A stretch of DNA of 64,000 bases, from contig JAAVVG010000002.1 of the NCBI GenBank assembly GCA_012976225.1, positions 992,001-1,056,000 of the forward strand, in the 5' to 3' direction. Within the stretch, counting starts at the first letter, position 1. Every line of letters starts with the position of its first letter. This DNA is from Golubevia sp. BC0850. Lineage: Eukaryota; Basidiomycota; Exobasidiomycetes; Golubeviales; Golubeviaceae. Both the position numbers and the translations under genes were made by a program. Below, in pieces: positions 36,356 to 38,814 of the stretch. The notes under the pieces were generated by a model that saw only the letters and a list, made by a program, of their open reading frames with translations, was not told the origin of the DNA and searched no databases.

Positions 36356-38814
36356 TCACTGGGCCTCTTCCGTCTTTTTAGCCCACTTTCCGAAAGGCTT
36401 GAATCCAGCAGGAGCGTTTGGAGAGCCGAAATCTTCATGAAGGTTCATGAGAAGTTTCAAAGCATTTCTAGCGTGAGTTCTTGAAGGATCCTCCCAAGGT
36501 CTTGAATCTTCCATTCTTTCAGAAGGCATCTTGTTATCTTTATGTTGAGAAGAGTCGAATGGGTAAGGAAGGAATTTCTGAAAGAGAGTTGAAAAGGGTC
36601 GGCAAAGAGAGAAAGAAAAAAGGAGTTAGAAACTCCACCAACCCAATTTTGTTTCCGATCTGGAAAAAAGAAAAATCCCAACTCACCTGAAGATATTCAT
36701 AAGCCACCAAAGTAGCACCAAACTGAGGACTACTTCTCAAAACTCTAGCCAAACTACCTTTGAAGAAAGCTTTTGGACCTTCATCTTTCAACAATTTCAC
36801 CGCACAATCACCAATTCCCTTATAAGTAGCTTCACCTTTTCTAGCTTCCACTTGCAATCTAGTTTTAATAACGTCAGCAGGAGTAGTCAAGAAAGCAGCT
36901 GGCATTCCAGCAATAGCAGCAGCAGCTAACAATTCTCCAAAACCAAGTTTCTTTCCACCAGATTTCTTTCCTTTAGAATCGATAGTTGCACCTGAACCTT
37001 CTTGAAATGTGTCCTTCTTCAAATGCGCGTAAGCTGGGAAATAAATGGCTGAGAATGGAATGTCACGTAGAAGACAAGCCGTTGCTCCACGATATAAACC
37101 TACTAAACCTAATTGACGGACAATGTGAATCGCTCCTCTGGCTACTCGATCTGATCCTTCCGCTTTGGCCATTTCTCCGGCGATTTGAAGTCGGATCTTG
37201 ACAATCTCTAGGGGGTTGGTGAAGACCTGAAAGCAGGGTCGATGAGAAAAAAGGGTATGTAGAAGTTAGATAAGCTGCTCGAGACACCTCAAGACTTCTA
37301 GCTCTTTTGAAAGCACCGGAAAGACATTGCTCTTTCTTCAATGTTCGGAAAGGGAGATACGAGATCTGGAAGAACAGATTGCCTCTCGCCCTCTGCTTCT
37401 ACTTCCTCCCTTTCCCTCTTCCACCCATTTCACATCTTCCCACTTTCTGGTACTCACAACTTGACAACCACCAGCCGTACCACCAGCGATGATTTCCCAT
37501 CTCAATTTGATTTCCCCAGTTTTCTCATCTCTAACTTTAGCTCTAACCAAATCATTCACAGTCAATTTGATAGCTTTCTCAGGAGCGACTCCAAGTAATT
37601 GAGGTCCCAAACCAGAATAAAAACCTTTGAAACCTTCATTTCTAAAGACTTTCTTAACACAATCAATAGAATTCTTATACATCAAAGGTTCACCCACAAC
37701 ACTAGATCTTTGATTTTGCATTCTAGTTTTTACCAAATCGATAGGATAAACCAAAGTTGCACCTGTAGCACCTGCAAGACCTCCCAAAGCGAAATTATAT
37801 GCAGAATGTGCTAGATCTTGTAAAGCTGAAATTGGAGCTTTTTCTAACTTGGCTTTTAGGTCTTCAGTTGAAGAGTTTGGAGAGTCTGAATCTTCTTCCT
37901 CTTCCTCATCATCTTCTTCTTCTAAAGCTGCTGGAGATGGTTTATGTCTTTCTAAATCATCTGAAATGAACAACTCATGACAGATTAGGTTTTCTGAATC
38001 TGAAGCTCCTCGAACTACTGAGGTACGATAGGAAAGTAAACCTGGAGAGGAATGAGCTACTTCTTTTTGGAAACGAGCTAGATGAGATTGGAATTGTTGA
38101 GGTGCATCGGGTCGGGCGTAGACCTGGTTGAGAGGAAGCGGGTGAGGGAGAGGAGAGAAGATGTTAGATGGAAGGATAGGAGGGATAGGGAGCGAGATGG
38201 ATAGGAAGAAATCGCAACACCCAAAAGCTTCAAGGGTTGCAACGAGCTTCAAGGCTTCTGCCCACTGTTTGAATTAGCCAGGAACCGATGACAAGTAGAG
38301 CTGTCAGACGTCCGATAGCAGCTCTTTCCAAAGAAGCACAGCTTGAAGGTCTACTCTACTCTACTCTCCGCGAGACCTTTCAGAAGTTCTTCCAGCTCGC
38401 CGACCAGCTGCTCCTTGAAACCCCTACTGGAGCTGCTGCTACCTTGACCGATTACCAGCTTGATTATCAACGTTTAACATTGATCACAGCAGCATCCCTT
38501 AGCCCTCAGCCAGAACCTCACGACTCCAATCCTATCCTATTCTGTTGACCCGAGTTCTTTCCGTTTGCTTCCCTTTCCCCCTTCACTTCATTGGCGACTA
38601 AACTAACCTTTGCAGTGATTTGAAATCTACCTTCACCTGGAAGATGTGGAGCTGGAATTTGATGTTGATATTGTTCTTCATCCCAAGAAAGTTTCGCTTT
38701 CTTTGATTTCTGAGCTACTGGTACTGGTTGAGGATTTGAAGAAGTGGAAGTGGAAGTGGAAGCTTCATCTTGAAGGTAAACTGGTCGGAAAATTGAGGGA
38801 AGAAACAAGGACAT
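36356..38814 (-). CDS. AGC1: ABM-like domain fused to an aspartate/glutamate-type mitochondrial carrier
   Basis: Four exons join in frame: 38814-38608, 38123-37458, 37226-36687 and 36577-36356 (544 aa). The C-terminal two thirds is a complete mitochondrial carrier with three signature motifs: PIDLVKTRMQNQR, PLEIVKIRLQ and PADVIKTRLQ. The flanking sequence (GATGATLVYPIDLV, VAPEKAIKLTVNDLVR) is diagnostic of the aspartate/glutamate carrier (Aralar/citrin/Agc1). A C-terminal extension starting KFLPYPFD is present, as in AGCs. The usual large EF-hand N-terminal half is missing. Instead, residues about 62-136 (GRFQITAKVYARP, SSPGLLSYR, ENLICHELFISDDLERH) fit the antibiotic-biosynthesis-monooxygenase (ABM) alpha/beta barrel. 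An acidic linker (137-165) follows. Both domains lie in one uninterrupted exon. The first intron (484 nt) is unusually long for this window. Confidence 0.82.
38288..38548 (+). CDS. candidate small protein nested antisense in an intron
   Basis: An 86-codon plus-strand open frame lies wholly inside the unusually long first intron of the minus-strand carrier gene. The product has an amphipathic helix-like core (LRETFQKFFQLADQLLLE) followed by an Ala/Thr-rich stretch. Codon choice resembles the neighbouring genes. I recognise no family. It could be a real small gene, part of a spliced antisense transcript, or chance. Confidence 0.25.
   Translation: MTSRAVRRPIAALSKEAQLEGLLYSTLRETFQKFFQLADQLLLETPTGAAATLTDYQLDYQRLTLITAASLSPQPEPHDSNPILFC

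Follow-up and report, generated by a model that had tools for sequence, protein, structure and literature searches.

The window analysed here, a stretch of 64,000 nucleotides from Golubevia sp. BC0850 (contig JAAVVG010000002.1, positions 992,001 to 1,056,000), carries on its minus strand a four-exon gene (38814-36356) predicted to encode a mitochondrial aspartate/glutamate carrier (AGC), in which a small alpha/beta domain, called the head below, apparently stands where other AGCs have a calcium-binding EF-hand half. The predicted protein of 544 amino acids starts at an ATG at 38814, and its stop codon ends at 36356. A variable N-terminal leader (residues 1-57, 38814-38644) is followed by the head (residues 58-129, about 72 residues), an acidic variable linker of low pairwise identity (residues 130-176, 37803..37943) and three Mito_carr repeats from about residue 177. 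Exon 1 (38608..38814) contains the start codon and leader, both of which align with relatives, and the first strand of the head (residues 58-69, 38643-38608), and ends at a GT donor at 38607. Exon 2 (37458..38123) contains the rest of the head (residues 70-129, 37944..38123, which align with helix 1 and strands 2 and 3 in AlphaFold2 models of two relatives, P0002 and P0021), the linker, carrier repeat 1 and the beginning of repeat 2. Carrier repeats 2-3 continue in exon 3 (residues 292-471, 36687..37226), and exon 4 (36356..36577) encodes the C-terminal tail and stop, including an amphipathic helix (RTHARNALKLLMNLHEDFG, residues 504-522, 36425..36481) that resembles the C-terminal helix of EF-hand AGCs. 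The three introns (38124..38607, 484 bases, GTTAGT..CCAG; 37227..37457, 231 bases, GTGAGT..TCAG; 36578..36686, 109 bases, GTGAGT..TCAG) are all of the GT..AG type and preserve the reading frame. These coordinates and exon joins agree exactly with the initial annotation, which had described exon 38123-37458 as joining a segment resembling antibiotic biosynthesis monooxygenases (ABM) to carrier repeat 1 by way of an acidic linker; most of the head is indeed located there, with its first strand in exon 1.

The length of intron 1 could suggest that the upstream exon is part of another transcript and that the fusion is an artefact of the gene model, but we regard this as extremely improbable. Carrier repeat 1 lies in exon 2 together with the bulk of the head, in-frame stops are met on reading through intron 1, and the identical order is seen in separate assemblies of many genera. 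Splicing of the gene is deduced from conservation on either side of the 38608/38123 junction (ITAK|VYARP), where 24 of the 30 head-AGC relatives listed below are continuous (PHLPGEGRF.V.AK.Y.RP); the records of the other six (P0007, P0017, P0019, P0027, P0029 and P0030) lack the first strand and begin at or after the junction. Met is absent between residue 1 and residue 204, which lies inside carrier repeat 1, so a complete headless carrier cannot begin at an AUG of these exons, and a carrier-only isoform starting in exon 2 was ruled out for this reason.

The carrier is of the AGC type, as initially annotated. Pfam assigns the protein Mito_carr at 242.5 bits in three stretches, and the carrier is 73-75% identical to that of P0036, an EF-hand AGC from Sistotremastrum. 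When the P0036 carrier was used as a query against the genome, the next-best carriers reached 27% and 39% over parts only and no second, EF-hand-bearing AGC was found, so that the gene described here is the sole AGC seen in the Golubevia genome. Three motifs, PEKAIK, RD[IVM]PFS and RSSPQF, which presumably correspond to the numbered contact residues of citrin, are all present in the Golubevia protein; among the listed relatives, each occurs in all 30 head-AGCs and in all 90 others. The C-terminal amphipathic helix of the Golubevia protein has a moment of 0.499, which 94 of 5000 shuffles reach. Several database records of head-AGCs are titled mitochondrial aspartate-glutamate transporter (agc1), and the precomputed domains of the 30 listed head-AGCs comprise PF00153 only. 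In citrin, the substrate contact residues are E/K (H2), R/D (H4) and R (H6) (PMC11539162).

The absence of EF hands noted in the initial annotation was borne out, with no Pfam EF-hand family (PF13499 and others) matching anywhere in the Golubevia protein at E<=10. In the basidiomycete AGC P0036, the EF-hand half matches the human aralar/citrin regulatory-domain structures 4p5x and 4p5w; as a query against the Golubevia genome it found a single place, C61:140710-141042 (36% over query residues 37-150), whose reading frames presumably belong to a frequenin/NCS-1-like gene. As this was the sole match, gene fission, in which the EF-hand half would be encoded elsewhere, was rejected. Among 25 EF-hand and 103 carrier matches listed genome-wide, no EF-hand/carrier pair is closer than about 60 kb, so an EF-hand carrier was not seen in the genome, at a sensitivity that divergent EF hands could escape. 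ATP-Mg/Pi carriers of the Sal1/SCaMC type that have EF hands likewise seem to be missing from the genome, or are too divergent to see.

The distribution of the two kinds of AGC was examined by searching with the full length of P0002, a relative from Pseudozyma flocculosa; 7993 candidates were scored, 5048 matched at E<=1e-20 and 120 of these were listed. Thirty of these 120 have the head without EF-hands, in the same domain order as in Golubevia; 87 have EF-hands without the head, none has both, and three (P0037, P0089 and P0096) are carrier fragments with neither. A head profile built from the Golubevia protein and 24 of the 30 head relatives detects those 24 by construction; the six outside the profile were still detected at 8.3e-14 or better, and all 87 EF-hand proteins were unmatched at 1e-3. 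A search with words from residues 1-135 gave seven matches among 171 candidates, all of them head-AGCs: P0001, which is the Golubevia protein itself, and six others, four of which carry organism names. Organism names are present for 14 of the 30 listed head-AGCs. Six of the head genera were looked up, and all fall within the Ustilaginomycotina: the Exobasidiomycetes are represented by Meira, Ceraceosorus, Parajaminaea and Tilletia, and the Ustilaginomycetes by Thecaphora and Testicularia. We take Pseudozyma, Kalmanozyma, Sporisorium, Ustilago and Melanopsichium to be Ustilaginomycotina as well. From the EF-hand group two genera were looked up, Mixia (Pucciniomycotina) and Sistotremastrum (Agaricomycotina); this group also contains rusts, Ceratobasidium, Coprinopsis and others. 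Among the matches listed, the head type was not found outside the named Ustilaginomycotina and the records without an organism name, and U. maydis is absent from the named matches.

An unrooted tree of the carrier domain was made from 31 head-AGCs (Golubevia and the 30 relatives) and 14 EF-hand AGCs, the latter being what remained of 16 picked by hand from the 87 after removal of P0048 and P0118, which lacked the motif used for cutting. A single branch parts the head-AGCs from the EF-hand AGCs (ultrafast bootstrap (UFBoot)/SH-like approximate likelihood ratio test (SH-aLRT) 99/96, and 100% of 200 bootstrap trees), and the Golubevia protein clusters with those of Ceraceosorus, Parajaminaea and Meira (92/86). 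Without an outgroup, the tree shows one change and not its direction, and the EF-hands are taken as the older state because animals have them, as do the two further basidiomycete subphyla that were sampled. Because head and EF-hands are mutually exclusive in the listed relatives, and the two kinds are separated by one well-supported branch, the EF-hand half of about 330 residues was apparently replaced in one event by a head of about a fifth of that size, which agrees with one of the earlier proposals, that the regulatory half had been replaced.

The deepest head-AGC in the tree, P0032, has a long branch and a head that is degenerate yet recognisable; its C-terminal helix has drifted too, and it is perhaps, by our guess, from a Malassezia-like fungus. 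In four other relatives (P0003, P0026, P0027 and P0029) the C-terminal helix is broken by an apparent unspliced intron after ..LLL/LLM, which is likely to be a gene-model flaw. An HCE motif is found in the leaders of many head-AGCs and not in the Golubevia leader. Ahead of the EF hands of the rust AGC P0088 stands a comparable ALQCE, as though the far N-terminal end had outlived the replacement.

Mean pairwise identity among 19 full-length proteins picked by hand (Golubevia and 18 of the 30 head relatives) is 67% for the head, compared with 31% for the neighbouring linker and 29% for the leader, which suggests that selection acts on the head; the corresponding values for the carrier and the C-terminal helix are 87% and 76%. 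This pattern is hard to reconcile with a head that serves passively as a spacer or is what is left of a decaying EF-hand half, either of which we consider very improbable. The degenerate state of the P0032 head, the most divergent one, would fit such decay, but EF-hand similarity is absent from all 30 listed head-AGCs, and the head is confidently predicted to have an alpha/beta fold whereas EF hands are all-helical.

The initial annotation had called the head an ABM-like domain, and similarity to that family was recovered at a level below the accepted threshold. Pfam ABM (PF03992) scores 14.3 bits on the whole Golubevia protein and 17.0 bits on residues 1-136, against a gathering cut-off of 23.1, and the match runs from residue 66 to 134 over profile positions 4-71, nearly the full profile. 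The Golubevia head matches ABM better than any other Pfam family, and no family beyond Mito_carr and ABM matches the protein at E<=10. Eight of 15 heads scanned match ABM at E<=10 (best E 8.8e-4) and seven do not; the scores seen range from 14.3 to 19.3 bits, the highest being that of the P0002 head (E 1.3e-3), and all lie below the cut-off. SchA_CurD is matched by two of the 15 heads (best E 0.11). Alignment of the heads by hhalign with 38 ABM segments from bacteria of the phylum of a Leclercia genome gave a probability of 16% (P 0.0016, score 20.3), a score reached by none of 100 column shuffles, although the best shuffle came to 19.2. In NCBIfam, one of the 15 heads matches one unrelated family (E 0.17), which gives no support to ABM. 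A sequence search of the Protein Data Bank (PDB) with the Golubevia head gave one match, Contactin-1 (E 0.18), and a search with the head profile gave 11, the best being Talin-1 (E 0.22) and none ABM. In a protein search with the head profile, no standalone relative was found, the three matches among 228 candidates all being further head-AGC fragments; this search relies on shared five-residue words, and a distant parent of the head could therefore be missed. Used as a query in the Golubevia genome, the head was found as a single copy. The genome has a standalone small ABM gene over the cut-off at C3:661855-661983 and further ABM matches at C62:1019229 and C9:106794, none of which was retrieved by the head query. 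Sequence comparisons thus suggest that a kinship of the head to ABM is plausible but unproven.

ABM proteins are dimers, and their fold is a contiguous beta-alpha-beta-beta-alpha-beta; we take PF03992 to group proteins of the YgiN, LsrG and ActVA-Orf6/SnoaB type. In the AlphaFold2 models of P0002 and P0021 the predicted head is a contiguous beta-alpha-beta-beta unit, which has the strand-helix-strand-strand order of ABM and is without its second helix and last strand. The predicted local distance difference test (pLDDT) values of the first model are 82-88 for the head blocks, 84 and 78 for the helix blocks and mostly 31-60 for the carrier, and those of the second are 89-92 for the head and 75, 90 and 76 for the helix blocks. 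Structural alignments of 71-88 residues shown by VIA as beginning in the head end in the C-terminal helix in 22 of 23 cases for the first model and in 18 of 18 for the second; the amphipathic helix that the carrier itself has at its C terminus falls, in the two overlapping models, at the place of the second helix of ABM. The structures matched include 2omo and 3bm7, which are titled putative antibiotic biosynthesis monooxygenase, and LsrG (2gff) and the oxygenase SnoaB (3kg0), which we take to be ABM proteins. Foldseek results on the whole models were dominated by carriers in both cases; the head-sized matches from one model were dodecins, DUF54, YbiO, PII and SnoaB, all at E 0.36 or worse, and no ABM entry was noticed among the 50 rows listed for the other. 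As the C-terminal helix is predicted in both relatives to pack on the head in place of the missing second helix, head and helix would together make up a single small domain that the carrier interrupts. We tentatively suggest, at somewhat less than even confidence, that an ABM-type head was cut after its third strand and completed by the AGC C-terminal helix as the second helix of a ferredoxin-like fold, the carrier lying inside the split fold. If so, the lineage retained the helix and traded the regulatory domain on which it docks for another that is unrelated.

The same data bear on a different origin, in which the head did replace the EF-hand half but is not a homologue of ABM, having come from some other small protein of ferredoxin-like or beta-alpha-beta-beta type or having formed de novo, and resembles ABM by convergence. 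The Pfam scores below the cut-off, the seven heads without a match, the silence of NCBIfam, the modest hhalign probability with a shuffle close behind, the want of a standalone relative and the ranking by Foldseek of dodecins and DUF54 proteins above SnoaB are all in keeping with such an origin. We nevertheless think it rather unlikely, given that ABM is the leading Pfam family for the Golubevia head and the one that most heads match (8 of 15), that no shuffle attained the hhalign score and that the order of elements agrees with ABM. A working ABM-type enzyme or sensor, responding to quinone, heme or another redox ligand and either tuning the carrier or merely tethered at the inner membrane, seems less likely still. 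It would account for the similarity across nearly the whole profile, for the ABM proteins among the structural matches and for a His and an Asp (H65 and D71 of A2) that are invariant in 15 heads. On the other hand, the predicted head is without the second helix and last strand of ABM, the head-terminal histidine is missing in P0032, and the head-profile search found no standalone relative at its sensitivity. No positive evidence was found for the redox, quinone or heme sensing that the initial annotation had considered.

The reading we lean towards, with a little more confidence than doubt, is that a calcium-independent ferredoxin-like (ABM-like) head took over the structural role of the EF-hand half and is not an enzyme. 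What the sequences show is the gene model, the absence of EF hands, a distribution in which the two kinds of AGC exclude each other and the one branch that separates them. The exchange would date from early in the history of the Ustilaginomycotina and would have left the carrier domain and C-terminal helix in place. The N-terminal domain of human AGCs forms a dimer, and the C-terminal amphipathic helix, which is peculiar to AGCs, docks in its groove (PMC4250520). By the reading preferred here, the head would dock this helix without calcium, a task that falls to the EF-hand domain in human AGCs, and would keep the carrier assembled, possibly as a dimer, in that it may pair two carriers; it may also aid biogenesis or arrival at mitochondria. 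Transport would be carried out by the carrier domain, whose contact motifs are kept, and is expected to be calcium-insensitive. Older work holds that AGCs are calcium-stimulated, as told in PMC11539162 and PMC12410006. The former, a 2024 study of citrin, reports that transport is not calcium-regulated, that the carrier domain alone is partly active and that N-terminal and dimer-interface mutations impair mitochondrial localisation (PMC11539162); the latter, a 2025 review, concurs on the lack of calcium regulation (PMC12410006).

Human and animal AGCs (SLC25A12, aralar; SLC25A13, citrin) and the other basidiomycete EF-hand AGCs share with the head-AGC the carrier, the contact motifs and the C-terminal helix, but human AGCs have an N-terminal domain with eight EF hands where the head-AGC has its small alpha/beta head. 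An AGC without EF hands is not new as such, since yeast Agc1p is likewise a fungal AGC that lacks them (PMC8539049); the novel part is a new domain standing where the EF-hand half was. ATP-Mg/Pi carriers (SLC25A24, Sal1) are also mitochondrial carriers that gained an N-terminal domain by fusion, but theirs is a calmodulin-like EF-hand unit and is calcium-regulated (PMC6283063). Literature searches, whose coverage mostly excluded subscription journals, found no report of a replaced EF-hand half, and the accessible part of a paper on fungal mitochondrial calcium uptake contains nothing on an AGC of Ustilaginomycotina (PMC7423614). According to the citrin study, why AGCs are dimers is still an outstanding question, and the part played by the N-terminal domain in transport, and how mutations there impair import, are not understood (PMC11539162). 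The sampled Ustilaginomycotina offer a natural experiment on these points, having apparently swapped the EF-hand half for a small unrelated domain while keeping the carrier and docking helix, and a job common to both unrelated N-terminal domains would be a good candidate for the essential one.

Around the gene, an Rfam scan of 34000-42000 gave no match. An ordinary neighbour on the plus strand, at 45449-47891, consists of protein kinase reading frames, which we take to resemble a septation kinase of the Cdc7/Sid1 kind.
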